A stretch of DNA of 49,511 nt from Acidobacteriota bacterium (lineage in GTDB: Bacteria > Acidobacteriota > Thermoanaerobaculia > Gp7-AA8): contig JAJXWV010000008.1 of NCBI GenBank assembly GCA_021781455.1, positions 1-49,511 on the forward strand, written 5' to 3'. Positions 7,049-28,123 of this stretch are shown here, one piece after another. Below the pieces are notes generated by a model that was not told the origin of the DNA, searched no databases, and saw only the letters and a program-made list of their open reading frames with translations. Made by a program: the position numbers and the translations under genes. How positions within the stretch are numbered: the stretch's first letter is position 1; every line of letters starts with the position of its first letter.

Positions 7049-9154
7049 TCAGCACATGGCCACGCCGCGGGACTTGATCACCCACTCGCCGGACGTGGTC
7101 TTCTCCAGATTCAGCGTCAGGCCGCGGCCGCAGTCGAGGCTCGCTTTGCCCGGCTCGGGTTTCGGAATCGGACCGGTCCACACACGCACCGTGGCCTGGC
7201 CATCAGACTGCGTTGCGATATCGAGGCGGATGATTCCGGGCGGCAGCGCACGCTCTTCTTCCGTCGCGTTCTTCGCGTCGATGGTCTTGCGTATCGACGA
7301 TACCGCGGCTCGCGCCGCGTCGCTGACCTGAGCGCCGACGAGAACGGTCGAGGTCTTCCCTCCTTCGACTTCCTTGAGCGCGATCGCAATGACCTTCGTC
7401 AGATCGCCAGCCGTCGACGTCGCGGCCGAGTACGCGACCGGCGGAGTCGTCGTCAGCGTGACCGTCGCGCCCACCGGCGTCGCTGTTGCGCTGGTGAAGC
7501 AGGGGAGAACGCGCGAGTCGGGATCGCCGGCGTCCACGCCGACCTCGAAGCCGAGGCTGCGCGCGAGGTCGGTCGGGGCGACGGCGGCTTCGTAGACGCC
7601 GGGCTTGACGCCTGCGCCCCACAACATCACCGGCACGTGCTGGTCTGCCTCGACCGGCTGGCCGTGCGTGGTGGCCGCGTAGTCCCACATGTAGCCGGCC
7701 TTGAGCGTGATGATCACGTCGCCGTCGCGGTCGGCGCGGAACGATCGCTCGACCATCGACTCCAGATCGCTGCCGAGCGGCTTGTCTCTGTCGGCGAGCA
7801 GCTCGCTGTTGGTGAAGACGCCGGAAACGCCGTGGATCTCCTTGACCGCATCGCTCATGGCGCGCTTGACGCGCTCGCCGTCGAGGTGCAGCTCGCGGAT
7901 CCGATTCCAGTTCAGGTACACCGCCGGCTCGTCGAAGAAGAGGATGAACGACTTCTCCACCGGCGTGCTGTTGCTGACCTTCACGCCCAGCTTTTTCGCT
8001 GTGAGCTCTTCGATCTCGCGCCTCGCCGCGCCGAGATCGGCGAACGTCTTTGCGGTCCTGGCGCGGCGCATGTCGACGCGTCCCGCATCGCGACCCATGT
8101 CGCGGGCCACTTCGGGAATCGACTGCACGCCGTGGTCTGCCGTCAGAGCGACCGTCACGCGGTCGTGGAAGTTGTGGTCGAGGAAGTCGAAGAACTCGGC
8201 CAGCTGCCGGTCGATTCGCACCACCGAGTCCGCAGCCTCGAACGAGTCGGGTCCGTAGTCGTGTCCGAGGTAGTCCTGCGACGAGAGGCTGATGAACACG
8301 ATGTCGGGGTGATGGTCTCCGGTGCCGAGGTTCTCGGTCTCGAGGAGGCGGCGGGCCAGTCCGAGGACCAGGTCGTTGCCGAAAGGCGTGTAGAGGATGG
8401 CGTCGGCGCCGCGGATCGGATGAGGGAACGAGGTGCCGAGGCCGTCGTGCGAGCGCTTGTACTGGCGCAGGCGCTCGGGATCGTGCGTGACCTTGTCGAG
8501 ATCGGTGGCAGGGATGTATCCGGAAAGGTCCCAGACCGGGTGCGCGGCAACGAATGCCGGCACGTTCTTGTTGTAATCGTCGAGCAGCGGCTGGTCGACC
8601 CCGCGGTAGTACGAGCTGGAGACGAAAGCTGATTTCTTCGAGTCGAACCAGTACGCGGCCGTGGCCTTGCGGCCGGCCATGAGGATCGCGGCGCGGTCCT
8701 TGATGGAGACGCCGTAGACCTTCGCGCCGGGATACTTCTCCTGCAGCCGGTCGCCGAGCGAGTCGGAGTCGAGATTCATCGGCGAGAACCCGCCGGCGAC
8801 GCGATCATCCTCGACGCAGTACACGCCCTGGCCGCTCTGCCGGTCGAACCAGTTGTTCGCGACGATTCCGCTGAGGGAAGGCGTGTAGCCGGTTCCGATT
8901 GCCGCGTGCCCGGGACCGGTGAACGTCGTGGCATAAGGATAGAGGGCCCTGGTGAAATCGGCGCCGCCCTTCAGGAAGCGGTTGAAGCCGCCGTCCGTGA
9001 AGTAGGGTGCGAAGCGGGGGAGGTAGTAGTACGGAAACTGATCGATGGAGATGACGACGATGAGGTCCGGCGGGGCGGTGGTCGTCTGTTGCGCAAAAGA
9101 GGAAGTCAGGGCGAGTGCGACGAGGGCGGCAAAAAGCAGGATGCGCTTCTTCAT
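7049..9154 (-). CDS. Exported alkaline phosphatase family protein, PafA-like
   Basis: A 701-residue phosphomonoesterase/phosphodiesterase of the alkaline phosphatase superfamily. MKKRILLFAALVALALTSSFA is a signal peptide, so it acts in the periplasm or outside. VVISIDQFPYYYLPR contains the first metal aspartate. TTFTGPGHAAIGTG carries the likely nucleophilic threonine, as in PafA-type enzymes. YLGHDYGPDS and ALTADHGV supply further metal ligands. The part after about residue 520 is an extension rich in T, A and V that I do not recognise. It contains two cysteines (LDCGRG and the terminal VAMC) that could pair outside the cytoplasm. The start is the natural signal-peptide ATG. Role inferred: phosphate scavenging from organic phosphates. 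Confidence 0.85.
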   Translation of the reverse strand: MKKRILLFAALVALALTSSFAQQTTTAPPDLIVVISIDQFPYYYLPRFAPYFTDGGFNRFLKGGADFTRALYPYATTFTGPGHAAIGTGYTPSLSGIVANNWFDRQSGQGVYCVEDDRVAGGFSPMNLDSDSLGDRLQEKYPGAKVYGVSIKDRAAILMAGRKATAAYWFDSKKSAFVSSSYYRGVDQPLLDDYNKNVPAFVAAHPVWDLSGYIPATDLDKVTHDPERLRQYKRSHDGLGTSFPHPIRGADAILYTPFGNDLVLGLARRLLETENLGTGDHHPDIVFISLSSQDYLGHDYGPDSFEAADSVVRIDRQLAEFFDFLDHNFHDRVTVALTADHGVQSIPEVARDMGRDAGRVDMRRARTAKTFADLGAARREIEELTAKKLGVKVSNSTPVEKSFILFFDEPAVYLNWNRIRELHLDGERVKRAMSDAVKEIHGVSGVFTNSELLADRDKPLGSDLESMVERSFRADRDGDVIITLKAGYMWDYAATTHGQPVEADQHVPVMLWGAGVKPGVYEAAVAPTDLARSLGFEVGVDAGDPDSRVLPCFTSATATPVGATVTLTTTPPVAYSAATSTAGDLTKVIAIALKEVEGGKTSTVLVGAQVSDAARAAVSSIRKTIDAKNATEEERALPPGIIRLDIATQSDGQATVRVWTGPIPKPEPGKASLDCGRGLTLNLEKTTSGEWVIKSRGVAMC

Positions 9155-9600: not shown

Positions 9601-12600
9601 TCAGAAGTTGACGCGAAGTCCGAGGCGACCCTGCCACCGTGAAGCAACGTTCGCGGTGGAGAACTGTCTTCCCGGTGTCAGGCTGCCGCTGAAGTTCTCC
9701 TTGTACACGGCCTTGCCGGTCGTTGGATCCTGACCGGTGTAGCGGACCGCGGTGTACGTGCCGAAATTGACGTACTTCTGCACCCCGGAGTTGTGATCGA
9801 ACAGGTTCACGAGATTGAGCACGTCGGCCTGAATCAGGACGCGTGCTCCGTGGATGGCCGGCAGGCCGAGCTCGTAGTGGAAATCGAGGCGGCGGTTCCA
9901 CGGCGCAAAGATCGAGTTGCGCTTCGGCGTGGAGCCGCTTGTCGGGTCGAGCCCGACCGAGCGCATGAAGTTCTGGAAGAGCGCCGGATCGAGCGGAGCC
10001 TTGCCGCCGCACGGGCTCGAGGCCGTCGGGTTGCCGGCGTTCGACGGGCAGAGAATCAGGTCGTTGGCCGCGGGAACGTAAAGGAGGTCGTTGTTCTGTG
10101 TCCCGTCTTTGTTGGGGTCACCGGCCATCAGCAAGGAATATGGCTGTCCTGCTTGCGCGGCGTAGAAGAGTCCGATGCCGTGCGTCAATGCTCCGGTGTC
10201 GAAGTGATAGGTCGCGGCGATATTGAAGCGATTCTTGATCTCGAACGTGGACGTTGCCAGCTCCTGCTGGAAGATGTTGCCGCGCGAGAGCTGGTTGAAC
10301 TGCCAGTTCGAGTAGGCGATGCTCGATTGCCCCTCGCCGACGGTTCTCGCATTCTCGTGCGCGTAGTTGACGGACACGTCGAGACTGCGGAAGTTGCGGT
10401 TGAACTGCAGCGTCTCCATCACCTGATTGCCCTTCGAGGTGTTCGACAGGAGGATGGCATCGAGGATGCTGGTGCTGACCGGTCCGTACGTCGGGCGGCC
10501 GTCGAGCGGGCTCGTGCCGGTCTGAACCTTGTTCACGTTGTAATAGAAAAGGTCTTTCTGAGTCTTCGACCAGAGCACCTCGGCGGTTCCGCGGATGCCC
10601 CAGAAGAGCTTGCGGTCGTATCCGAGCGTCGACCTGAGAACGCGCGGGAACTGGAAGTGGCTGTCGGTGACGTTGATCGTCGGCGCAGCGCCGGATCCGA
10701 GGTTGTGCGGCTGGTTCGTCGTGTCGGGATTGAATGCCGGGGGGTTGCAGTGGGCCGACTGCAGGCAGCCGAGCGAGGTGGTCTCGACGCCCGTGTTGCC
10801 GTAGTTGTTCGAGATCCACACGTACGGAGCGCGCCCGAGGAAGATGCCCACGCCGCCTCGGAGCTGCTGCGTCCCCTGACCCGTCGGATCCCAGTTGAAG
10901 CCGAAGCGTGGCTCGAGGATCAGCGACTGGCTCGGCTTGGTCGCCGTGGAGTAACCGATCGCCTGCTGAACGGCCGGATTGAACGACGGTGTGGTGTCGT
11001 AGTGCGGCTTGTCGAGGCGCAGACCGAACGTGAACGTGAGATTGTTGGTCGTGTGCCACTGGTCGCTCGCGTAAAGGCTGTACTGCCCCGCCTTGAACGC
11101 GGTCGGAGCCTTCGGGTTCGAGCCGTTCGCGAAGCTGATGCGGTAGATGTCGGGCGTGCCTGCCTGGAAGTCTTCCCAGGTCTTGAAGTGGTAGTAGCCG
11201 TTGATGTCGGTGATGAAGAGGTTCTTGAAGTCGAACCACTGGTTGCTGGTGCCGAACACGAGCGTGTGCGCGCCGATGGTGCGGGTGAAGTCGTCGGTGA
11301 ACTCGAGGATGTTCTGGTCGAGTGCGTTCGCGCCGGAGAAGCGCTCCGTGCCGAAGAAATAGTTGCCGTTGCGCTCACTGCCGCCGATCTCGACCGATGG
11401 GAAGTTGGCCAGGACCTGGCGCTGCTCGCGGATCGTCGTGTAGTTGAGTCGCGCTTCGTTGTACGAGTTCTGCCCGAGGACGCTGTTGAGCTGCGCGACC
11501 GAGGAGTTCGTCTTGCTGAGGAACGGATAGATGGAGGTGGGGAAGTAGAAACGGCTCGACGTGCGCGCAGCGCTGGAAGGCGTGTTGTCGCGGTTGGCGC
11601 TTACGTAGTTGTGCCGGACCGTCAGGTTGTTCGCGCTCCCGATGTTGAAGTCGAGGCGGCCGAACAGCAGCTTGCTGTGCGTCCCGAGTGAGAGAGGACC
11701 GGAGCCGCCGAGGTTCACGTTGTACTTGTTCTGGACATAGGCCGCCACTGCATCCGGCGTCGGGAAATCGGGATTGCTGAACGGCGTGTAGTCCTGCGGG
11801 TCGTTGCGGCGGTTCGATTCGCCGCTGACGAAGAAGAAGAGCTTGTCCCGCATGATCGGACCACCGACACGGCCGCCCCACTGATTCTGGCTGAAGTCGG
11901 AGACCTTCTGATTCGACGGACCCTTGCCGACGAAGGACGGATCGCGCCGCGTGCCGAAGACGGATCCGTCCAGGTTGTTCGTTCCCGAGCGCGTGACGGC
12001 GTTGATGCCGCCGCCGGTGAAGCCGCTCTGGCGGACGTCGTACGGCGAGACCACGAGCTGCAGCTGCTGGATGGCATCGAGCGAGATCGGCTGCGTTCCC
12101 GTCTGTCCGCCCGGAGTTCCGGACGAGGCGAGACCGAACACGTCGTTGTTGACCGCCCCGTCGATCTTGATGTCGTTGTAGCGGTTGTTGGTGCCGGCGA
12201 CCGAGAGGAACGTGCTCGTGTCGTCGGTCAGGCTTGCCGCGAAGTAGGGGTTCGTGCGCGCCATGTCCTGAAGCGTACGGTTGACCGTCGGAAGGGTCTC
12301 GATCTGCTCCGTCGAGACCGAAGAGGTCGAGCCCGTGTGGCTCGGGTTGATGAGGTCGTCCGGCTTCGCGGTGACCGTGATCGCCTCACTCACGCTGGCG
12401 AGCTGAAGCTGGATGTCGATTTCGGACGAAGCGCCCAGGTTGACGGTGACGTTGTTCACCGTCGCCGGCTTGAACCCTTCCAGGTTGGCCGTGATGGTAT
12501 ACGGGCCCCCGACGCGCGCGTTCGGGATCGTGTAGCGGCCGTTCGTTCCGGTGACCGCGGCGTAGTGAGTGCCCGTCGGCACGTGGACCGCGTCGACCGT

Positions 12601-12780
12601 CACCCCCGGCATCGCGCTGTTGTCGTTCTTTGCGGTGACGAGACCGGTGATGTTTCCGGCGGTGACCTGCGCGAAGGTCGGCGGCGCGAACGCCAAGAGA
12701 ACACACGCGATGGTTAGGCAGTACGCGAACGTGCGCATTGCGCGCGCCGTGGTGCCGTTGCTGCTTCGCTGAGCGAACAT
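9601..12780 (-). CDS. TonB-dependent outer-membrane receptor with N-terminal regulatory-like domain
   Basis: A 1059-residue outer-membrane receptor that would take up a large substrate using TonB energy. After a signal peptide (LTIACVLLAFAPPTFAQ) comes a carboxypeptidase-regulatory-like beta-sandwich (ITGLVTAKNDNSAMPGVTV... TGTNGRYTIPN, about residues 40-125). A plug domain follows (QIETLPTVNRTLQDM, GGINAVTRSGTNNLDGS), and then a barrel of about 800 residues with alternating aromatic strands up to the terminal RLGLRVNF, a typical outer-membrane ending. This is the Oar-like arrangement common in Acidobacteriota. The start at 12780 is fixed by AGGAGG seven bases upstream; the frame is open further upstream. 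Two tandem terminators follow. The substrate is unknown. The TonB-like proteins at 14903 and 27164 are possible partners. Confidence 0.92.
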   Translation of the reverse strand: MFAQRSSNGTTARAMRTFAYCLTIACVLLAFAPPTFAQVTAGNITGLVTAKNDNSAMPGVTVDAVHVPTGTHYAAVTGTNGRYTIPNARVGGPYTITANLEGFKPATVNNVTVNLGASSEIDIQLQLASVSEAITVTAKPDDLINPSHTGSTSSVSTEQIETLPTVNRTLQDMARTNPYFAASLTDDTSTFLSVAGTNNRYNDIKIDGAVNNDVFGLASSGTPGGQTGTQPISLDAIQQLQLVVSPYDVRQSGFTGGGINAVTRSGTNNLDGSVFGTRRDPSFVGKGPSNQKVSDFSQNQWGGRVGGPIMRDKLFFFVSGESNRRNDPQDYTPFSNPDFPTPDAVAAYVQNKYNVNLGGSGPLSLGTHSKLLFGRLDFNIGSANNLTVRHNYVSANRDNTPSSAARTSSRFYFPTSIYPFLSKTNSSVAQLNSVLGQNSYNEARLNYTTIREQRQVLANFPSVEIGGSERNGNYFFGTERFSGANALDQNILEFTDDFTRTIGAHTLVFGTSNQWFDFKNLFITDINGYYHFKTWEDFQAGTPDIYRISFANGSNPKAPTAFKAGQYSLYASDQWHTTNNLTFTFGLRLDKPHYDTTPSFNPAVQQAIGYSTATKPSQSLILEPRFGFNWDPTGQGTQQLRGGVGIFLGRAPYVWISNNYGNTGVETTSLGCLQSAHCNPPAFNPDTTNQPHNLGSGAAPTINVTDSHFQFPRVLRSTLGYDRKLFWGIRGTAEVLWSKTQKDLFYYNVNKVQTGTSPLDGRPTYGPVSTSILDAILLSNTSKGNQVMETLQFNRNFRSLDVSVNYAHENARTVGEGQSSIAYSNWQFNQLSRGNIFQQELATSTFEIKNRFNIAATYHFDTGALTHGIGLFYAAQAGQPYSLLMAGDPNKDGTQNNDLLYVPAANDLILCPSNAGNPTASSPCGGKAPLDPALFQNFMRSVGLDPTSGSTPKRNSIFAPWNRRLDFHYELGLPAIHGARVLIQADVLNLVNLFDHNSGVQKYVNFGTYTAVRYTGQDPTTGKAVYKENFSGSLTPGRQFSTANVASRWQGRLGLRVNF

Positions 12781-13123
12781 AGAACTTCCTCCTGATTTTT
12801 CATCGAGCTTGCTGCCGCGAGCGGACAGCGGTTTGGATGTGAGATGAGGGACCGCACCCCCGCGTTGCCGCAGAGCTGCGTTGCTGAGGCGTTCCTGAAG
12901 AATGCGCGAGTCACACCGAGTCACACGAGGAACCCGTGTCGTTTTGGACCGCGCGATGATACGACGAAAGATGCGCCGAGTCAGCCTAAAAGAAGGTGCT
13001 CACGCACAAGAGCGAACTCCGATTCGTTGAATTCGAAGTCCAATTTTGTGAAGGGAGGGGGAACCGGGTCGCAGGAAAGTCTTGATTCCTGCGACCTGAA
13101 AGCTGCAATCTGGGACTGCGACC
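12781..13123 (-). promoter_or_regulatory. Leader region between rho and the receptor gene
   Basis: This 343-base stretch holds no gene that I can support. Next to the receptor start it carries the strong AGGAGG ribosome binding site (12787-12792). It must also contain the receptor promoter; I see no convincing -35/-10 pair, and TATCAT near 12955 on the minus strand is only a weak -10 candidate. The end near rho carries the stem-loop at 13067-13096. Confidence 0.4.
13067..13096 (-). terminator. Stem-loop downstream of rho
   Basis: A perfect 11-base stem, GGTCGCAGGAA with its complement, and an 8-base loop begin 28 bases past the rho stop codon. No T-run follows, so it is either a 3'-end stabiliser or the pause hairpin of a factor-dependent end rather than a classical intrinsic terminator. 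A partial third copy of the word (GACTGCGACC) lies between it and rho, so it may belong to the intergenic repeat class. Confidence 0.4.
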
Positions 13124-14482
13124 TCAGAAGCTTTTGAGGAACGTCTCGTTGGTCGGGAATCTCTGCAGCCGCTCGAGCAGCATCTTCATGGCCGTCATCG
13201 GATCGGTGCCGGCCAGGGCGCGTCGCAAGGTGTGGATCTTCGGCAGATAGGCCGGAGGGATGAGCTTCTCCTCTTTGCGCGTGCCGCTCTGGGCGATGTT
13301 CATGGCCGGGAAGATCCGCCGCTCGAAGAGTCCGCGGTCCAGCACGATCTCGGTGTTCCCGGTCCCCTTGAACTCCTGGAAGATGACCTCGTCCATGCGC
13401 GAGCCGGTGTCGATCAGGGCCGTGGCCACGATCGTCAGCGAGCCCCAGTCCTCGGCCTTGCGGGCGGCGCCGAAGAAACGGCGAGGTTTCTCCATCGTCC
13501 TGGCGTCGATACCGCCGGAGAGGATCTTGCCGCTGCCGCGCTGCTCGTTGTTGTAGGCGCGCGACATGCGCGTGATCGAGTCGCAGAGAATCACCACGTC
13601 CTTCTGGAGCTCGACCAGGCGCCGGGCGCGTTCGAGAACGACTTCTGCGATCAGGATGTGGTTATCCGCAGATTCATCGGAGCTCGAGGCGATGACTTCG
13701 CCGTGCTCGAGCGAGCGCCGGAAGTCGGTGACTTCCTCCGGCCGCTCGTCGACGAGAAGGACGATCACCGTGACGTCGGGGTGATTCGTGTTCACGCCGT
13801 GCGCGATGTCCTTCAGCAGCGTCGTCTTTCCTGCTTTCGGCGGCGCCACGACCAGGCAGCGCTGGCCCTTGCCAATCGGTGCGAGAAGATCGAGCACTCG
13901 TGTGGTCAGCCGTTCCGGCTCGACCTCCAGCTTGAACATCTCGTTCGGATCGATCGAGATCAGCTCGGAGAACGGCCGGCGGGAATCGCGGAACTCCTCG
14001 ACGGTCATGCCCTCGATCGTTTCCAGGACCACGAACTCGAGGCCGCCGTTGCCGCCTCGCCTGGCATTGCCGGAGACCAGAAGGCCGGGATCGAGGTGCA
14101 TTTTCTCGATCACGTTGCGCGGGACGATGGCGTCGCCCGGCTGCGGCACGAAGTTGTTGGCCGCCTGCACGAGAATGCCGCCGCCGTTCGGCTTGACGTA
14201 AAGCACACCGGCTACCTGCGTCAGCTCGCCGGGCGCGAGATCGATGACCGGCAGGTTCTCGCCCTGCGAGACCTGCGATGCTTCTCCGGGGCGTCCGCGA
14301 TGGCGTGAACGACGCCGGCGCCTCCGTCCGAACCGCCCTTCCGGGGATCCGTTCTGGGGCGCTTCGTTGCCCGGCATGGCGCCGCCGTTTCCGTTGGGAG
14401 TCTGTTGTGGGGCAGAGCTGCCCCCCTGACCGCGCCGTCTGCGCCGCCGGCGCTTACGCGGTGTGCGATTGTCTGGTGTCAT
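13124..14482 (-). CDS. rho: Transcription termination factor Rho
   Basis: This 452-residue hexameric RNA helicase ends transcription. The RecA-like core is complete: Walker A APPKAGKTTLL, LLVDERPEEVTDFRRS, Walker B DVVILCDSITR, the R-loop region GSGKILSGGID, RFFGAARKAEDWGSLT, and the C-terminal FKGTGNTEIVLDR and SGTRKEEKL. The primary RNA-binding domain is at about residues 75-150. In place of the usual N-terminal helical domain there is a tail of about 70 residues with two arginine clusters (RKRRRRRRRGQGG and FGRRRRRRSRHRGR) separated by an N/G/P/Q-rich spacer, as in Rho of several GC-rich phyla. Such tails probably add RNA affinity. The gene is transcribed divergently from the kinase gene at 14903. 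Confidence 0.97.
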   Translation of the reverse strand: MTPDNRTPRKRRRRRRRGQGGSSAPQQTPNGNGGAMPGNEAPQNGSPEGRFGRRRRRRSRHRGRPGEASQVSQGENLPVIDLAPGELTQVAGVLYVKPNGGGILVQAANNFVPQPGDAIVPRNVIEKMHLDPGLLVSGNARRGGNGGLEFVVLETIEGMTVEEFRDSRRPFSELISIDPNEMFKLEVEPERLTTRVLDLLAPIGKGQRCLVVAPPKAGKTTLLKDIAHGVNTNHPDVTVIVLLVDERPEEVTDFRRSLEHGEVIASSSDESADNHILIAEVVLERARRLVELQKDVVILCDSITRMSRAYNNEQRGSGKILSGGIDARTMEKPRRFFGAARKAEDWGSLTIVATALIDTGSRMDEVIFQEFKGTGNTEIVLDRGLFERRIFPAMNIAQSGTRKEEKLIPPAYLPKIHTLRRALAGTDPMTAMKMLLERLQRFPTNETFLKSF

Positions 14483-14902: not shown

Positions 14903-17776
14903 ATGCCTGAAACCATTCTCGTAGTCGAGTACGAACCTCGTTACACGGATCGGGTTCGGCAAGCGCTTGCAGGACACCCCTTCACCACCGCGTTCGCCAA
15001 GGACGGTGACGAGGCCTTGCGCGCTATCGCCGCCACCCGGCCGACGCTGATCGTCCTCTCGTCGGTCATTCCGCGGACGACCACATCCGACCTGATTCGG
15101 GCCATTCGCAGCCAGAGTCCGCTGGAGCAAACCCCCATTCTGCTGACCGTCTCGGGGTACACGGGGAAGATGCCCAGGGCCGATGCCGAGCGCGTCGGAG
15201 CGTCCGACATCCTGCCGAAGCCCTATACCGAGAGCGACTTTCTCGGCAAAGTGCAGCAGATGCTCGGGATCAGCGCGAGTGCTGCGGACGGGACGCCCAA
15301 TCCAGACTACGGGGTCCACGGCACGAGCGCCGCCGGAGGACAGCTGACGTCGAACGAGATATTCGGCGATCTTCTGACCGACGACAAACCGGCCGCCGCC
15401 GCGAAGAAGAGCATCAACGTGACCGGCGACGTCGACAAGATGCTGGAGTCGACGCTCGCGGGCATGATGCCCCAGCGCAAAACCTCGACGGGCATTCCCC
15501 GTCCGGTGACCTCGCCGGGGACCGAGCCGCGGCCGCGCACCCAACCGGGCGCTGCGGAGCTCGACAAGATTCTGCACGACACCCTTTCAGGCCTCGAAAG
15601 AGGTCCAGGCCGACCGAAGAGCAACCCGCCGGCAGTGCCGCAGCCTTCTGTCGCCCAGCAGACCGTGCCGGCACCGGAAGCACCAGCGCGCCCCATCGCG
15701 CCTCCGCCCGTCGCGCCTCCACCCGTCGCGCCGCCAGTCGCAGCGCCGACCGCTCCCGTCGTGGAGAAGGTGTCGCTCTCTTCGCCGGTCATCCCGAGCC
15801 CCGCGCCGCAGCCGGTCATCGAAAAGCCGGCGGAAGAGGAGCAGGAGCCGGTCGATGGAATCCGATTCGGCCAGTACGTGCTGCTCGACAAGATCGCGAC
15901 GGGCGGGATGGCCGAGGTGTGGAAGGCGCGGATGCGCGGAGTGGAGGGATTTCAGAAGATCGTCGCGATCAAGAAGATCCTGCCACATCTGTCGGACAAC
16001 CGCGACTTCATCGACATGTTCATCGATGAGGCGAAGCTGGCGGCGCAGCTCACGCACAACAACATCATCCACATCTATGACCTCGGCAAGATCCAGAGCT
16101 CGTACTACATCGCCATGGAGTACGTGGACGGCTGGGATCTGAAGACGATTCTCAAAAAAGCGCAGGATCGTGACCAGCCGCTGACCGTCGAGCTGGCGCT
16201 GTTCATCACCTCGAAGATTGCCGCCGCGCTCGATTATGCTCACCGCCGTCGCGACTTCAACGACCAGGAGATGGGGCTGGTCCACCGCGACGTCTCTCCG
16301 CAGAACGTCCTGATCTCGCAGGAAGGCGACATCAAGCTCTGTGACTTCGGAATCGCCAAGGCTGCCTCCAAGGCGTCGCACACGCAGGCCGGAGCGCTCA
16401 AGGGAAAATTGCAGTACATGTCGCCGGAGCAGGCCTGGGGCCGCGCCATCGACCGGCGCTCCGACATCTTCGCACTGGCCGCCGTGCTGTTCGAGCTCCT
16501 CACCGGGCGCAAGCTGTTCAGCGGTGACAACGAGCTGTCCATTCTCGAACAGGTCCGCGAGGCGCGGGTTATTCCTCCCTCACAGATCAACGAAGAAGTG
16601 ACGCCGGAGATCGACCAGGTCGTTCTGAAGGCGCTGCACAAGGATCCGGAGAACCGCTATCAGACGGCCGGCGAGATGGCTCGCGACATCGACCAGATCC
16701 TCTACACATTCCGCCCCACGCCGACCAGCGCCGACCTCGCCATCTTCATGCATCGCCTCTCCACCACCGAGCCGGTGCGCGTTCATCCCGATCTCGATGA
16801 GACCGTGATCGACGAGGCGCCGGCCGTCACCCCTGTGATCGCAGCGATGGCCAGGCCGGTTGCGGCGGCAGTCCCCGCCGCCACTCCGGTCGTTCCACCG
16901 CCGCCCGTCGCGGCGGCCCCTTCCATGTTCGTGGCTGAGCGAGCGGCAAAGAAAGCCCCGATCGTACCGATCGCCATCGCCGCCGTTGTCGTCATCGCCA
17001 TCGGCATCGGTGCGTTCGTCATGATGCGGGGCAAGGGACAGAGCGCAGCGCCCGCTGCCACTTCATCGGCGGTCGCACAACAGAAGGGCGCCGTCGCGCC
17101 GGGCGCTGCCCCGGCTTCAACGACGGCGGCGCCGGAATCTGCCACGGCACCGGTGGCCGCTGCTGCAGCGTCGACCGATACCGCCATCGATCAAACGAAG
17201 GTCGACGCGGAAGTGCAGAAGCGCCTGGAGGCCGAGCGAGCGAAGCTGGAGCAACTGGCGCGATCGCAGCAGCCCCAGACGCAGACCGCTGCGGCAGCGC
17301 GGCCGCCGGCAGCACGTCCGCCGGTTCAGACCGCGTCGGTCGCGCCGCCACCTGTGACCGAGACCCACGCTCCCGTGCCGGTGGTGACGCAGACAGTCGC
17401 ACCGCCACCGGTCCAGACGGAGACACATGCGCCGGCTGTTCCTCAGCCGGTCACTGAAACTGTCGCGCGAGCAAAGGAAGGAGATCTCATCACCGGTGGC
17501 GAAGGTCTAACCGCGCCGCGCCTTCTGCGCCTCTCCACGCCGGAGTATCCGCTGCTGGCCCGCCAGCAGCGCGTCGAAGGCCTCGTGCTGATGAGCGTGC
17601 TCATCTCCGAGAAGGGCCAAGTGATGCAGGTCAAGCTCCTTCGCGGAGTGAACAGACCAGTCGGTCTCAACGAGGCGGCGGAGGCGGCCGTGCGCCGCTC
17701 GACCTTTGCTCCGGGGATGAAGGATGGGGTGCACGTGAAGGCGTGGATGACGGTGCCGATCAACTTTAAACTATAA
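14903..17776 (+). CDS. Degenerate receiver - Ser/Thr kinase - TM - TonB C-terminal fusion protein
   Basis: This 957-residue protein has four parts. Residues 1-120 have a receiver fold (ILVVEYEP, LPKPY), but the phospho-acceptor aspartate position is Ser53 (LIVLSSVIP) and the usual acidic pair is E-Y, so phosphorylation at that site is unlikely. A proline-rich linker follows. Residues about 322-600 are a Hanks-type kinase: ATGGMAEV glycine loop, VAIKKI with Lys357, HRDVSPQN with Asp463, DFG with Asp481, and YMSPEQ. A second proline/alanine-rich stretch leads to one membrane helix (about 686-707). A charged helical segment (about 762-790) and more proline/threonine-rich sequence follow. Residues about 868-957 are a TonB C-terminal domain (TPEYPLLARQQRVEG... 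VKAWMTVPINFKL). The kinase would be cytoplasmic and the TonB domain periplasmic. ATG 14903 has only a weak ribosome binding site. Confidence 0.9.
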   Translation: MPETILVVEYEPRYTDRVRQALAGHPFTTAFAKDGDEALRAIAATRPTLIVLSSVIPRTTTSDLIRAIRSQSPLEQTPILLTVSGYTGKMPRADAERVGASDILPKPYTESDFLGKVQQMLGISASAADGTPNPDYGVHGTSAAGGQLTSNEIFGDLLTDDKPAAAAKKSINVTGDVDKMLESTLAGMMPQRKTSTGIPRPVTSPGTEPRPRTQPGAAELDKILHDTLSGLERGPGRPKSNPPAVPQPSVAQQTVPAPEAPARPIAPPPVAPPPVAPPVAAPTAPVVEKVSLSSPVIPSPAPQPVIEKPAEEEQEPVDGIRFGQYVLLDKIATGGMAEVWKARMRGVEGFQKIVAIKKILPHLSDNRDFIDMFIDEAKLAAQLTHNNIIHIYDLGKIQSSYYIAMEYVDGWDLKTILKKAQDRDQPLTVELALFITSKIAAALDYAHRRRDFNDQEMGLVHRDVSPQNVLISQEGDIKLCDFGIAKAASKASHTQAGALKGKLQYMSPEQAWGRAIDRRSDIFALAAVLFELLTGRKLFSGDNELSILEQVREARVIPPSQINEEVTPEIDQVVLKALHKDPENRYQTAGEMARDIDQILYTFRPTPTSADLAIFMHRLSTTEPVRVHPDLDETVIDEAPAVTPVIAAMARPVAAAVPAATPVVPPPPVAAAPSMFVAERAAKKAPIVPIAIAAVVVIAIGIGAFVMMRGKGQSAAPAATSSAVAQQKGAVAPGAAPASTTAAPESATAPVAAAAASTDTAIDQTKVDAEVQKRLEAERAKLEQLARSQQPQTQTAAAARPPAARPPVQTASVAPPPVTETHAPVPVVTQTVAPPPVQTETHAPAVPQPVTETVARAKEGDLITGGEGLTAPRLLRLSTPEYPLLARQQRVEGLVLMSVLISEKGQVMQVKLLRGVNRPVGLNEAAEAAVRRSTFAPGMKDGVHVKAWMTVPINFKL

Positions 17777-17809: not shown

Positions 17810-18040
17810 ATGCCGACTCTGACGGACCAGCAGCGGAAGTTCTACGAGACCACTCTGCAGGTCACCAAACAGGAAATCAACGACCTCAAGGATCAGATCG
17901 AAGAAGAGCTCTCCAAGGTCAAGGACAGGATCGCGGAACTGCAAACCGCCATCAACGCCTCCAAGCAGATGTACGCCGCCGCCTGTGCCCGCCTCGGCAT
18001 CGCCAACGACCTCGAGGAAGAAGAGGGCGGCGAGCAGTAG
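17810..18040 (+). CDS. Small coiled-coil protein, 76 residues
   Basis: This short soluble protein is dominated by one charged amphipathic helix (TKQEINDLKDQIEEELSKVK and on to about residue 50), then a segment MYAAACARLGIANDL and an acidic tail EEEEGGEQ. GGAGGG about 10 bases upstream supports the ATG. It lies 33 bases after the kinase/TonB fusion gene and is closed by an intrinsic terminator, so the two are probably cotranscribed. It could be an accessory or scaffold partner of the kinase. I do not recognise a family, and the function is unknown. Confidence 0.75.
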   Translation: MPTLTDQQRKFYETTLQVTKQEINDLKDQIEEELSKVKDRIAELQTAINASKQMYAAACARLGIANDLEEEEGGEQ

Positions 18041-18065: not shown

Positions 18066-18095
18066 AACTGCAGCCTTAGCGCTGCAGTTTTTCTT
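18066..18095 (+). terminator. Intrinsic terminator after the kinase/coiled-coil unit
   Basis: A 9-base stem, AACTGCAGC with GCTGCAGTT, closed by a 6-base loop and followed by TTTTTCTT, begins 26 bases after the coiled-coil gene. It ends the two-gene transcription unit. Confidence 0.85.
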
Positions 18096-18127: not shown

Positions 18128-18204
18128 CAACCACAGAGACGCAGAGCTGGCGAGCGGAGCGAGCCTGCGCCATGTACCTCGGTGTCTCTGTGTCTCTGTG
18201 GTGA
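18128..18204. repeat. CCACAGAGACGCAGAG inverted repeat
   Basis: The left arm AACCACAGAGACGCAGAG (about 18129) pairs with CTCTGTGTCTCTGTGGT (about 18187-18203) across a loop of about 40 bases. The same word family makes the repeat at 19118-19175. It lies between the terminator and the BtuF-like gene. Confidence 0.85.
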
Positions 18205-18252
18205 AAATTCAGGGCCGACCTGAGGGATGAGTCCTGTCGCTATACTCGCCGG

Positions 18253-19107
18253 GTGCGCCCTTCGCTGCTGCTCGTCCTGATGGCGATCGCCTGCGCCGCT
18301 CCTCCTCCTGCCACGATGCGCGACGACCTCGGCCGCGCGATCGCCGTGCCGGCCAAGATTCATCGCATCGTCACGCTCGCTCCGAACCTCACCGAGATGG
18401 TGTTCGCCATCGGTGCCGGAGCGAAGGTGGTGGCGACGGACAGCTTCTCGGACGTTCCCGCTGCGGCGAAGGGTCTGCCGAAGGTCGGAGGTGTTCCGCC
18501 TAACGTCGAGCGGATCGTGGCCGCCCGGCCGGACCTGGCCCTGACGGTGAGCAACAGCGGCGATGCCGCCCTGGCGGCGGCGCTGCTGGCGGCGAACGTG
18601 CCTCTCTACATCGTGAGAACGGACCGCATTCGCGACGTGCCGCGCGCGATCGAGACGCTCGGGCGAATCCTCGACGCGCCGGACGCGACCGGTGTCGCAG
18701 CGGCGCTTCGACGGGGGATCGAGGCGCAAAGGCGGCAGCGCACCCGTCCGCCCCGCGTGCTCTTTGCGATCTGGACGGATCCGCTGTACGTGGCCGGCCG
18801 CGGGACTTTCGGCGATGACCTGCTGTCGCTTGCCGGAGCCCGGAACGCGGTGCAGGCTGCCGGCTGGCCGCAGTACTCGCTCGAGTCGATCGTGGCCGAT
18901 CCGCCCGATCTGATTCTCTATCCTGACAAGTCGGTGACGCCGGCTGCGATCGAAGCGCTGTTCCGCGCCGCTCCGGAGTTGCGGACGCGAACCACGGCAG
19001 TGGCCGTCGATGAGAACCGCTTCACGCGTCCCGGTCCACGCCTTGTCGAAGCCGCCGCGGAGCTGAACGCGATTCTCGACCGCTGGGAAGCGGAGCACCG
19101 GAAGTGA
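18253..19107 (+). CDS. BtuF-like periplasmic substrate-binding (lipo)protein
   Basis: A 284-residue binding protein of the cobalamin/iron-siderophore ABC importer family. The start is GTG. The N-terminus MRPSLLLVLMAIACAAP is a signal sequence with a lipobox-like AIAC, so it is probably a lipoprotein. The family signature is clear: DLGRAIAVPAKIHRIVTLAPNLTE at the start of lobe 1, KVGGVPPNVERIVAARPDLAL, and in lobe 2 VLFAIWTDPLYVAGRGTFGDDLL and ESIVADPPDLILYP. A permease and an ATPase follow on the same strand. The ligand could be a corrinoid, heme or siderophore. No cobalamin riboswitch was found upstream, and the available leader is too short to hold one. Confidence 0.88.
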   Translation: MRPSLLLVLMAIACAAPPPATMRDDLGRAIAVPAKIHRIVTLAPNLTEMVFAIGAGAKVVATDSFSDVPAAAKGLPKVGGVPPNVERIVAARPDLALTVSNSGDAALAAALLAANVPLYIVRTDRIRDVPRAIETLGRILDAPDATGVAAALRRGIEAQRRQRTRPPRVLFAIWTDPLYVAGRGTFGDDLLSLAGARNAVQAAGWPQYSLESIVADPPDLILYPDKSVTPAAIEALFRAAPELRTRTTAVAVDENRFTRPGPRLVEAAAELNAILDRWEAEHRK

Positions 19108-19117
19108 GAAGAGCACC

Positions 19118-19175
19118 AAACCACAGAGGCACAGAGTTCACCGAGGTTCTCTGTGCTCTCTGTGCCTCTGTGGTT
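19118..19175. repeat. CCACAGAGGCACAGAG inverted repeat inside the importer operon
   Basis: ACCACAGAGGCACAGAG (about 19119) pairs with CTCTGTGCCTCTGTGGT (about 19158-19174) across a short loop, with an extra CTCTGTGCT word in the right arm. A second short tandem word, AATTCGCAATCC, follows at about 19206-19231, just before the permease start. Both lie between the binding-protein and permease genes of what should be a single operon. Confidence 0.88.
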
Positions 19176-19257
19176 GGCTGCCGAACATGATCGCGATCTC
19201 CCATCAATTCGCAATCCGCAATTCGCAATCCTCCGGTCTATGCTTTCACCGCAGCGA

Positions 19258-20259
19258 ATGACCGATTCCTCGATCCAGCCGTCGACGCATCTGCCAGGCC
19301 GGCTCTGGCGGCCGATCTTTGTGATGACGGCCGTCCTTCTGGTGGTCGTGGTGATCTCGATCTTCATCGGCGCGGCGGATGTGTCGTGGCGGTCGGTGGT
19401 TGCCGGTGACGAGACCGCCCGGGCGGTGCTGTTGCGCATCCGTCTTCCGCGAGTCATCGTCGCCGCGCTCATCGGTGCGACGCTGGCGGTCTCCGGGCTC
19501 GCATTTCAGACGCTGCTGCGCAATCCGCTCGCCGACCCGTTCATTCTCGGCGTGTCCGGTGGCGCAGCGTGCGGCGCGGCGATCTCGACGGCCTTGGGCC
19601 TGGCTCGCGTGCCGGGCCTGGTCCCGATCGTCGCCTTCGCCAGTGCCTGCAGCGCCACGGCGGCGGTGTTTCTTCTCGCTCGCCGCCACGGCCGCACCGA
19701 CACCACGCGACTGCTCCTGTCCGGGCTCGTGCTGAACGCGTTTTTCTCGGCCATCATCCTGATCGCTTTCTCGCTCGCGCCGCAGAGCGATCTTGCGGCG
19801 GCCCTGCGCTGGATGATGGGGACGCTGGCCGGCGCCACGTGGGGCGATGCCGTGCTGCTCGCTGTTCTGCTGACCATGGCCGTGATCGTGCTCGTGGTCA
19901 CCGGCAACGACCTGCGCATGCTCGCATTCGGCGAGGACGACGCCCGCGCCCGTGGCGTCGACGTGGAACGGCTGAAGCTGATCGGATTCGCGATCGCCTC
20001 GGTCGTCACCGGCGCGGCGGTTTCCGTCAGCGGCATCATCGGATTCGTCGGCCTGCTGGTGCCGCACCTGGTGCGCCTGATCTGGCGGCGCGACTTCCGT
20101 TTCCTCCTTCCGCTCTGTGTGCTCTGCGGCGCAGCACTGCTGGTGCTGTCGGATCTCGTGTCGCGAATCGCCATCGCTCCGGCCGAGCTGCCGGTCGGGG
20201 CATTCACGGCGCTGTTAGGCGTGCCGTTCTTCATTTCCCTCCTGCGGAGCGAGCGCTGA
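19258..20259 (+). CDS. FecCD/BtuC-type ABC importer permease
   Basis: This 333-residue inner-membrane permease has about nine or ten hydrophobic helices. FecCD-family landmarks are RLPRVIVAALIGATLAVSG, FQTLLRNPLADPFILGVSGG, and the C-terminal SGIIGFVGLLVPHLVRL, which precedes the coupling helix. It forms the channel for the BtuF-like and BtuD-like neighbours. The start is uncertain: ATG 19258 and ATG 19240 are both possible and neither has a clear ribosome binding site. The stop codon overlaps the ATPase start by one base (TGATG at 20257-20261), so those two are translationally coupled. Confidence 0.9.
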   Translation: MTDSSIQPSTHLPGRLWRPIFVMTAVLLVVVVISIFIGAADVSWRSVVAGDETARAVLLRIRLPRVIVAALIGATLAVSGLAFQTLLRNPLADPFILGVSGGAACGAAISTALGLARVPGLVPIVAFASACSATAAVFLLARRHGRTDTTRLLLSGLVLNAFFSAIILIAFSLAPQSDLAAALRWMMGTLAGATWGDAVLLAVLLTMAVIVLVVTGNDLRMLAFGEDDARARGVDVERLKLIGFAIASVVTGAAVSVSGIIGFVGLLVPHLVRLIWRRDFRFLLPLCVLCGAALLVLSDLVSRIAIAPAELPVGAFTALLGVPFFISLLRSER

Positions 20260-21014
20260 TGCTGCGCATCCAGAACGCTTCCTTCGCGTACGACGGCGCG
20301 GACGCCATCCGCAACGTCACCCTCGAGGTCGGCGGCGGCGGATTCCTCATGGCCCTGGCCGGCCCCAACGGTTCGGGGAAATCGACGCTGCTCAAGATGA
20401 TTGCCCGCGTGCTGCGCCCCCGCTCCGGCGAGATCTTCTTCGACGGGCAGAAGCTCACCGACTGGCCCGCCAAGGACTACGCCAGGAAGATCGGCTACCT
20501 CCCGCAGGAGATCGACGCCACGTTCCCGATGCGCGCCATCGACGTGGTCGTGTCCGGCCGCGCCGCCTACCTGGGGCGCTTCAGCTGGGAAACTTCGTCC
20601 GATTACGCGAAGGCGGAGGAGGCCCTGGCCACCTGCGATGCTTCCCACCTGGCGGGACGCTTCCTCGACGAGATGAGCGGTGGAGAGCGCAAGCGCGTCT
20701 TCCTGGCGCGCGTGCTTGCCGGCGCGCCACGGCTGATCCTGCTCGACGAGCCGTTCGCGGCGCTCGACATCGCCCATGTCCAGCAATTTGCCTTTCTCCT
20801 GCGTGGGATCGTCGACAGGACAGGCTCGACCGTGATCTTCGCCGCTCACGACCTCAACTGGGCGGCTGCCTACAGCGACAGGATGATCGTCATGCGGCGC
20901 GGCGAGATCGCCGTCGACGCCGTTCCGGCCGCGGTCATGCGTGCCGAGGTCGTGCGTGACCTGTTCGGCTTCGAGGCCCGCGTCGTGGACGGGTGGGTCG
21001 TGCCCCGGGCGTGA
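20259..21014 (+). CDS. BtuD/FepC-type ABC importer ATPase
   Basis: This 251-residue ATPase energises the importer. Motifs in order: aromatic A-loop FAYDGAD, Walker A GPNGSGKST (about residues 35-43), Q-loop GYLPQEIDA, ABC signature MSGGERKRV, Walker B LILLDEP, D-loop AALD and H-loop AAHD. Length and spacing fit the FepC/BtuD/HmuV group. The ATG overlaps the permease stop codon, so the assignment to the same transporter is firm. The transported compound is not. Confidence 0.92.
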   Translation: MLRIQNASFAYDGADAIRNVTLEVGGGGFLMALAGPNGSGKSTLLKMIARVLRPRSGEIFFDGQKLTDWPAKDYARKIGYLPQEIDATFPMRAIDVVVSGRAAYLGRFSWETSSDYAKAEEALATCDASHLAGRFLDEMSGGERKRVFLARVLAGAPRLILLDEPFAALDIAHVQQFAFLLRGIVDRTGSTVIFAAHDLNWAAAYSDRMIVMRRGEIAVDAVPAAVMRAEVVRDLFGFEARVVDGWVVPRA

Positions 21015-27163: not shown

Positions 27164-28123
27164 TTACCTCGCGGGCGGCTCCTGGTTGTAGAAGAACATG
27201 CAGGTCACGCGCTCGCTCTCGTTCGGGAAATCCTTCGGCAGGGCGTTCAGAGGCGAGGAGAGCTCGATGGCCTTCTTCGCTGCAAAATCGTACGGAGGGA
27301 CGCTGCTCGTGCTGAGCATCTGCACGTCGGAGATGCGGCCGTCGCGGTGGATCGTAAAGCGGATCGTGACCACGCCCTTGAGGCCGGTCTTGATCAGCTC
27401 CGGCATGTTGCCGTACCAGTTCACGCGGATGCGGCTGACCATCGAGGCCGCGTAGGGACCCCAGTCGTACCACTGGGTCTCGAACGACAGCGGACCGCTC
27501 TCGGCGAACCCCTTCTCGCCTCCGCCGGCGCCGCTGAGATCGAAGCCGCGCTGGCCCGAACCGACTGCCTGTTTGCCGACCGCCGTAATGGCGTCGCGCC
27601 AGTCCACTCCGCCGGCCGACGCGGACTGCACCGGTTTGCGGTACGTCAGCCCGTTGAGCGTCGCCTGAGACTGCTGCGGAGCCGACGGAGCGGTCGGGCC
27701 GCGCTGCGCAAGCTGTTCGGCCGGCTGCTGGATCGACGGCTGTTGCTGTTGCGCGGGACGGTTATCTCCGGCAGCCGTCGGCGGAACGTACGCAGGGCCA
27801 CTTTCGCCGGGGCGAATGGTGGGTTGATCGCCGGTCGGATGCGGCATGCTCGCCTTCCGGTTCGCGTCCGAATAGGGGGCGGAGAGGGGAGTGGTCGCGC
27901 TCTTCTTGCCCGGTGCCTCGGTGAACTGCTTCGGGGCCTGGCGCATCAACTCGACGTAATGGACGATCGGAGCCGCGGCGGGAGTGATCGCCATCGGGCG
28001 ATAGCTCCTCACGACATAGATGATCAGAAGCATGTGGACGATGATCGAGACGAACACCGCGAGGCCGACGCCCTGGCGTGGCTCATCCGCTTCGACAGCA
28101 ACGAGATCGATCCGGTCTTCCAA
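27164..28123 (-). CDS. TonB-like energy transducer
   Basis: A 319-residue TonB/TolA-type protein. A short cytoplasmic N-terminus is followed by one membrane helix (VGLAVFVSIIVHMLLIIYVV, about residues 18-37). Then comes a long proline/glutamine/alanine-rich periplasmic linker, and a C-terminal domain from about residue 215 (MVSRIRVNWYGNMPELI, GVVTIRFTIHRDGRISDV, FAAKKAIELSSPL) that should contact TonB boxes of outer-membrane receptors. No exbB or exbD is near. The frame begins with TTG at 28123 and has no good ribosome binding site; the next in-frame ATG would fall inside the membrane helix, so TTG is preferred. The receptor at 9601 is a possible client. Confidence 0.83.
   Translation of the reverse strand: MEDRIDLVAVEADEPRQGVGLAVFVSIIVHMLLIIYVVRSYRPMAITPAAAPIVHYVELMRQAPKQFTEAPGKKSATTPLSAPYSDANRKASMPHPTGDQPTIRPGESGPAYVPPTAAGDNRPAQQQQPSIQQPAEQLAQRGPTAPSAPQQSQATLNGLTYRKPVQSASAGGVDWRDAITAVGKQAVGSGQRGFDLSGAGGGEKGFAESGPLSFETQWYDWGPYAASMVSRIRVNWYGNMPELIKTGLKGVVTIRFTIHRDGRISDVQMLSTSSVPPYDFAAKKAIELSSPLNALPKDFPNESERVTCMFFYNQEPPAR

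Follow-up and report, generated by a model that had tools for sequence, protein, structure and literature searches.

A conserved two-gene module of Acidobacteriota: a bitopic kinase–TonB_C protein and its coiled-coil partner

The locus and its products

The window, i.e. the whole 49,511-nucleotide stretch of contig JAJXWV010000008.1 (assembly GCA_021781455.1, Thermoanaerobaculia) that was analysed, carries on its forward strand, at positions 14903–17776, a gene for a 957-aa bitopic protein that could be delineated from the open reading frame, Pfam matches, an AlphaFold2 model and relatives. The window's genes and domains described below are on the same strand unless stated otherwise. The protein begins with a pseudo-receiver domain (residues 5–117, positions 14915–15253), which is conserved among relatives, scores 39.3 bits against the Pfam family Response_reg (cut-off 30.2) and is modelled with pLDDT values above 90. 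A long linker leads to a catalytically intact PknB-type Ser/Thr kinase domain (residues 325–587, 15875–16663), recognized by Pfam (Pkinase, 145.8 bits, above the curated cut-off), conservation and a structure match. Hydropathy analysis revealed one strong membrane segment in the entire protein, at approximately residues 687–708, and the model places a helix at residues 688–708 (16964–17026) that contains no histidine. Beyond it lie a predicted periplasmic Pro/Ala-rich stalk (17027–17539) with a helical segment at residues 764–788 and a C-terminal TonB_C domain (PF03544; residues 880–957, 17540–17773), which scores 63.6 bits against a cut-off of 24.6, aligns with its relatives and has pLDDT values of at least about 95. 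In the AlphaFold2 model (49 family members), the receiver, kinase and TonB_C domains are confident and the long linkers are disordered. A structure search gave no TonB or receiver match among the matches listed, as the kinase fills the list. The order of receiver, kinase, membrane helix and TonB_C, which a preliminary description of this DNA had proposed, was borne out by Pfam, hydropathy and the model. The same description placed the kinase in the cytoplasm and the TonB_C domain in the periplasm; this topology is probable, given that the protein has no signal peptide and that its one helix follows an ATP-dependent kinase. Some 690 residues stand N-terminal to the helix, and the mean Lys/Arg counts of its flanks (2.6 before, 1.8 after) agree weakly with a periplasmic C-terminus.

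Only 33 bp downstream of the kinase gene and on the same strand starts a gene for a 76-aa coiled-coil protein (17810–18040), supported by its open reading frame, homologues, an alignment and a model, with a long helix (residues 6–62) and a conserved end, QMYxAACxRLG. It is followed by a hairpin with a T-rich tail (18066–18095; −16.4 kcal/mol, z −3.5), which was not flagged by the consensus scan and is the probable end of the two-gene unit. The coil protein, as we refer to it here, is probably made from the same transcript as the kinase. Its reading frame matches no Pfam family (weak coiled-coil matches of 21 bits at best), and NCBIfam likewise gave weak coiled-coil matches only (ZntR and others), so that no known family could be assigned; these matches and one in the PDB to the ZntR dimerization helix (E = 0.0038) were all taken as helical similarity. 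The coil family appears to be undescribed in the literature searched.

The next genes downstream encode BtuF-, BtuC- and BtuD-like importer components (BtuF, FecCD and ABC-ATPase in Pfam; 18253–21014), which recur as downstream neighbours in related loci. The interval from the coil gene to the btuF-like gene contains, at approximately 18128–18205, an inverted repeat (aaccacagagacgcagag ... ctctgtgtctctgtggt) that resembles a dispersed repeat element. On the reverse strand, a gene for a CarboxypepD_reg/outer-membrane beta-barrel protein (9601–12924) is followed by rho (13124–14482); upstream of the kinase, rho is kept in nine loci and the receptor in six. No riboswitch or other RNA reached the gathering score between positions 9000 and 24000.

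Phylogenetic distribution and gene neighbourhoods

A scan of genome contigs (one genome per species, 84,980 species), from which the best 80 loci were retained, showed that the relatives of this protein come mostly from Thermoanaerobaculia, Holophagae and other Acidobacteria records, plus CSSED10-310. Exactly one copy (E below 1e-80) was found in 17 of the 18 genomes of the window's family, the exception being an 86%-complete genome; among the 49 scanned family members, the kinase was present in 49, the TonB_C domain in 42 and the receiver in 38. The recurrence of this architecture is far beyond chance. An isolated fusion, the outcome that the preliminary description had named as speaking against its reading, could be rejected, given the single copy in nearly all family genomes and the relatives across Acidobacteriota. 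The literature searched contained no account of such fusions in Acidobacteria.

In 71 of the best 80 loci, the kinase gene is followed within 0–210 bp by a coil homologue in the same orientation. Seven of the remaining nine, all from Acidobacteriota, are cut by the contig end; the other two (L076 and L080), whose titles give no phylum, encode related kinases and have enough downstream sequence, yet no detectable coil. The coil gene therefore follows the kinase in 71 of the 71 testable loci of Acidobacteriota and CSSED10-310, which settles in favour of the neighbour gene the question of its conservation that the preliminary description had raised. On the scale of the phylum, the coil was found in 74 of 199 sampled genomes, nearly always as a single copy. 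Nine coil-less genomes from seven families were compared, three of them from a single family of the window's class and six from further families. A full-length orthologue was absent from all nine, in which matches to the kinase protein were at most partial and centred on the kinase. Thus, judging from the downstream linkage, the genome sample and the coil-less genomes, the kinase protein and the coil are linked, co-inherited and co-absent. An alignment of 76 coil sequences shows no variation at Tyr12, Glu33, Leu34, Val37 and Leu44, and Cys59 occurs in 75 of the sequences. Over 59 loci, the coil is on average 64% identical to its counterpart in the window, the kinase 68% and the receiver 40%, so that the conservation of a protein without a name comes close to that of the kinase domain of its single-copy and, in this family, near-universal partner. 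The preliminary description understates this neighbour gene.

Upstream of the coil, other acidobacterial families again encode a one-pass membrane partner, the parts of which differ. Many loci combine pseudo-receiver, kinase and TonB_C; four have the pseudo-receiver and TonB_C and lack the kinase (L145, L147, L151 and L153), and in four others the membrane partner carries TonB_C alone (L141, L142, L143 and L196). The kinase is present and TonB_C absent in L135–L138, L154 and L195; together with L064, L066, L068, L069 and L073, these loci have kept the coil and lack TonB_C, so that the module can evidently do without the periplasmic domain. The coil thus stays beside a membrane protein in lineages where the kinase, the receiver or TonB_C is absent. 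Divergent, unlinked copies of the coil, with no TonB_C partner beside them, occur in L146 (6756–7112), L148 (5166–5504) and L149 (3107–3445); two of these have an era-like GTPase gene immediately upstream.

Analysis of the gene neighbourhoods showed ExbB in 25 loci (ExbD in 22), in a divergent upstream cluster that stands behind YebC and RuvC and, where the contig reaches, also includes TonB. BtuC- and BtuD-like genes follow the coil in 26 loci, mostly other than those with ExbB, and a BtuF-like reading frame is the next gene after the coil in 30. ExbB or BtuC is found beside the module in 49 of 81 loci and both are found in two (L032 and L065), which points to all three having been together in an ancestral locus. 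This gene context supports a link to TonB-dependent uptake. Since YebC and RuvC intervene in the divergent ExbB neighbourhood, the context may partly be inherited synteny. A DUF4388 protein is encoded divergently from the kinase, approximately 1.3–2.7 kb upstream, in L010, L017 and about 18 other loci, mostly those without the ExbB cluster.

Kinase, pseudo-receiver and linker

The catalytic residues of the kinase (K357, E376, the HRD motif at 461–463, N468 and the DFG motif at 481–483) and the activation-loop residue T494 are identical in all 81 sequences; this conservation suggests strong selection for kinase activity. Its fold is closest to that of Mycobacterium tuberculosis PknB (5u94; Z 32.4, rmsd 1.7 over 255 residues, 41% identity). 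Like the PknB/StkP-type PASTA kinases, which it resembles in kinase fold and sequence, the protein has a catalytic domain with all catalytic residues, a single membrane helix C-terminal to the kinase and an extracytoplasmic C-terminal domain. PASTA kinases, however, carry PASTA repeats, for which Pfam gave no match in the 957-aa protein, and the NCBIfam PASTA-kinase model scored 307.7 bits, under its cut-off of 450; in their place this protein has TonB_C, together with an N-terminal pseudo-receiver and an obligate coiled-coil partner gene. Many PADLOC kinase models also match, chiefly over the common kinase domain; as there was no other sign of defence, a role against phages was rejected. Paralogues that combine a pseudokinase, a membrane helix and TonB_C are encoded in L084 (1633–3567; contig C38 of the window's own genome) and L157 (1486–3420). 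Both have lost HRD and DFG (HGALLPQFVWIS and AGQ, respectively, stand instead) and retain TonB_C.

In the receiver, Ser53 (positions 15059–15061) occupies the acceptor site, which precedes the conserved Pro57 by four residues, and Glu9-Tyr10 forms the acidic pair. These residue calls had been made in the preliminary description and are right, and both losses are conserved over 69 sequences: position 53 is Ser in 28, Thr in 25 (i.e. Ser or Thr in 53), Asn in nine, Ala in four and Asp in one, and Tyr10 is found in 52. The domain therefore has the receiver fold, according to both Pfam and the model, and lacks the Asp acceptor and the full acidic pair; an active phosphorelay receiver could be rejected. 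The conservation of Ser/Thr at position 53 and of Tyr10 indicates that the loss of phosphorelay chemistry is old and has been retained, as would be expected of a docking domain. The pseudo-receiver may accordingly be a module for binding another protein rather than a phosphoryl acceptor. There is a precedent in FrzS of Myxococcus xanthus, the receiver of which is functional without the phospho-acceptor Asp, as given in the available part of the report (PMC1974792). FrzS is like the protein described here in lacking that Asp; it differs in its role in social motility and its movement from pole to pole, and the available part of the same report describes neither a membrane kinase nor a TonB_C domain (PMC1974792). 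Kinase-less relatives in other families (L144, L145, L147, L151 and L153) have Glu at the acceptor site, possibly a permanent phospho-mimic.

The linker between receiver and kinase is poorly alignable and contains two recurrent motifs. Motif A, SNEIFGDLL in the window protein (residues 150–158, 15350–15376), corresponds to the consensus TSxDIFGDxL and was found in 63 of 69 linkers and in none of 200 shuffles. Motif B (consensus VDxLLxxTLSGL) was found in 57 of the 69 linkers and, again, in none of 200 shuffles; its two copies here are VDKMLESTLAGM (residues 177–188, 15431–15466), which is helical in both models at low confidence, and LDKILHDTLSGL (residues 220–231, 15560–15595). In 24 paired sequences, the few linker positions without variation include Phe154, Thr227, Leu228 and Gly230, and a motif-B-like helix is kept in three of the four minimal forms that have neither receiver nor kinase. 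In a model of an artificial read-through chain of protein and coil (24 paired sequences, the stop codon read as Gln), residues 150–158, 176–185 and 217–231 are helical, with pLDDT mostly below 50; in the model without the coil, which was made from a different alignment, only 178–184 is helical among the linker motif copies. The helices in the read-through chain are thus at most a hint of docking, and the motif helices may form the binding site of the coil.

A proposed envelope-signalling mechanism and its alternatives

The two genes make up a conserved module, unstudied so far, that extends across Acidobacteriota and probably serves envelope signalling. We regard the protein as a variant of known bitopic signalling proteins and propose the following mechanism, to which we assign a probability of approximately one half. 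The periplasmic Pro/Ala-rich stalk would carry the TonB-like domain to a dock in the envelope, such as an outer-membrane receptor, another envelope protein or peptidoglycan, without performing the energy-coupled work of TonB. Stalk and membrane helix would pass the docking state inward; the coil, an obligate partner for which the short helical linker motifs are the probable binding site, would set the clustering of the membrane proteins. Docking outside would thereby change clustering and hence the activity inside of the PknB-type Ser/Thr kinase, the presumed cytoplasmic output. We infer the ligand, the binding of the coil to the motifs and the direction of signalling.

Gating of TonB action by phosphorylation, which the preliminary description had put forward, found no support. 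TonB and the kinase protein share the TonB_C domain, a Pro-rich periplasmic stalk and one membrane helix, and ExbB genes are near 25 loci, all of which could point to an energy transducer. In Escherichia coli TonB, however, the helix residues Ser16 and His20 contact ExbB (PMC12215075), and these contacts have no counterpart in the kinase protein: histidine is absent from the helix in all 74 sequences in which that helix is clear, so that coupling to ExbBD in the manner of TonB is unlikely. Furthermore, the neighbouring ExbB clusters that are complete on the contig encode their own TonB, which does have the histidine, and TonB proteins are in general devoid of a cytoplasmic domain (PMC8262864), unlike this protein with its large kinase part. 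An energy transducer, disfavoured on these sequence grounds, is the least probable of the readings considered here. Nearly as improbable is that the coil serves as a dedicated phosphorylation substrate of the kinase. Since its gene is the obligate neighbour of that of a catalytically complete kinase, it would be a candidate, and the preliminary description had suggested that it might be a partner or a substrate. The part about a partner stands, the gene being conserved and linked. The coil has no Ser or Thr conserved across the phylum, however, and persists beside kinase-less partners, so that a structural or regulatory partner fits better and the substrate found no support. Within the window, a TonB-like reading frame (27164–28123, reverse strand) has SIIVH in its membrane helix, a Ser/His spacing that is absent from the kinase protein.

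Two further readings follow known bitopic proteins. One is a receptor kinase for peptidoglycan or the general state of the envelope, a counterpart of the PASTA kinases in which TonB_C has replaced PASTA. It has in its favour the common PknB plan, with the kinase inside, one helix and a sensor outside, and the fact that the pseudokinase paralogue of the same genome (L084) adjoins an mltG-like gene, recognized from its sequence as a peptidoglycan lytic transglycosylase; the lack of a PASTA domain and a gene context of TonB-dependent uptake rather than cell-wall synthesis make it rather improbable. The best rival is a scaffold like GltG/GltJ of Myxococcus, in which the chain, assembled with the coil, would link the cytoplasm mechanically or positionally to the outer envelope and the kinase and pseudo-receiver would be plug-in regulators. 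This fits with the dispensability, across lineages, of kinase, receiver and TonB_C alike, while coil and membrane helix stay. According to the available part of the report on it, GltG (PglI) of the Agl-Glt machinery is an FHA–membrane helix–TonB_C protein, i.e. it has a cytoplasmic signalling domain, one helix and a periplasmic TonB_C domain as here, and it interacts with the ExbB/TolQ-type motor protein AglR (PMC3169522). It differs in having FHA instead of receiver and kinase, a domain that was absent among the Pfam matches of the 957-aa protein, and the available part of that report describes no equivalent of the coil gene (PMC3169522). Against a scaffold, the strict retention of the catalytic residues in all 81 kinase-bearing sequences favours a signalling output, and no motility genes were recognized in the mapped neighbourhoods. 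We consider such a scaffold somewhat unlikely on its own, although it overlaps with the signalling module proposed here; a module of either the receptor or the scaffold type is the most likely interpretation.

A broader and more tentative version of the signalling module would place the coil and its bitopic partner at the centre of a trans-envelope system, so far undescribed, that is widespread in Acidobacteriota. The membrane anchor, clustered by the coil, would carry exchangeable cytoplasmic parts (pseudo-receiver and kinase) as well as a periplasmic TonB-like domain, and the system would inform the cytoplasm about uptake at the outer membrane, perhaps of cobalamin or siderophores. To our knowledge, few bacterial kinases have a sensor able to reach the outer membrane. 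If the TonB-like domain reads the state of a receptor or of the envelope, the chain would provide a direct route from the outer membrane to the cytoplasm without sigma/anti-sigma pairs, and the module would give a specific, testable partner to a large set of unannotated genes.
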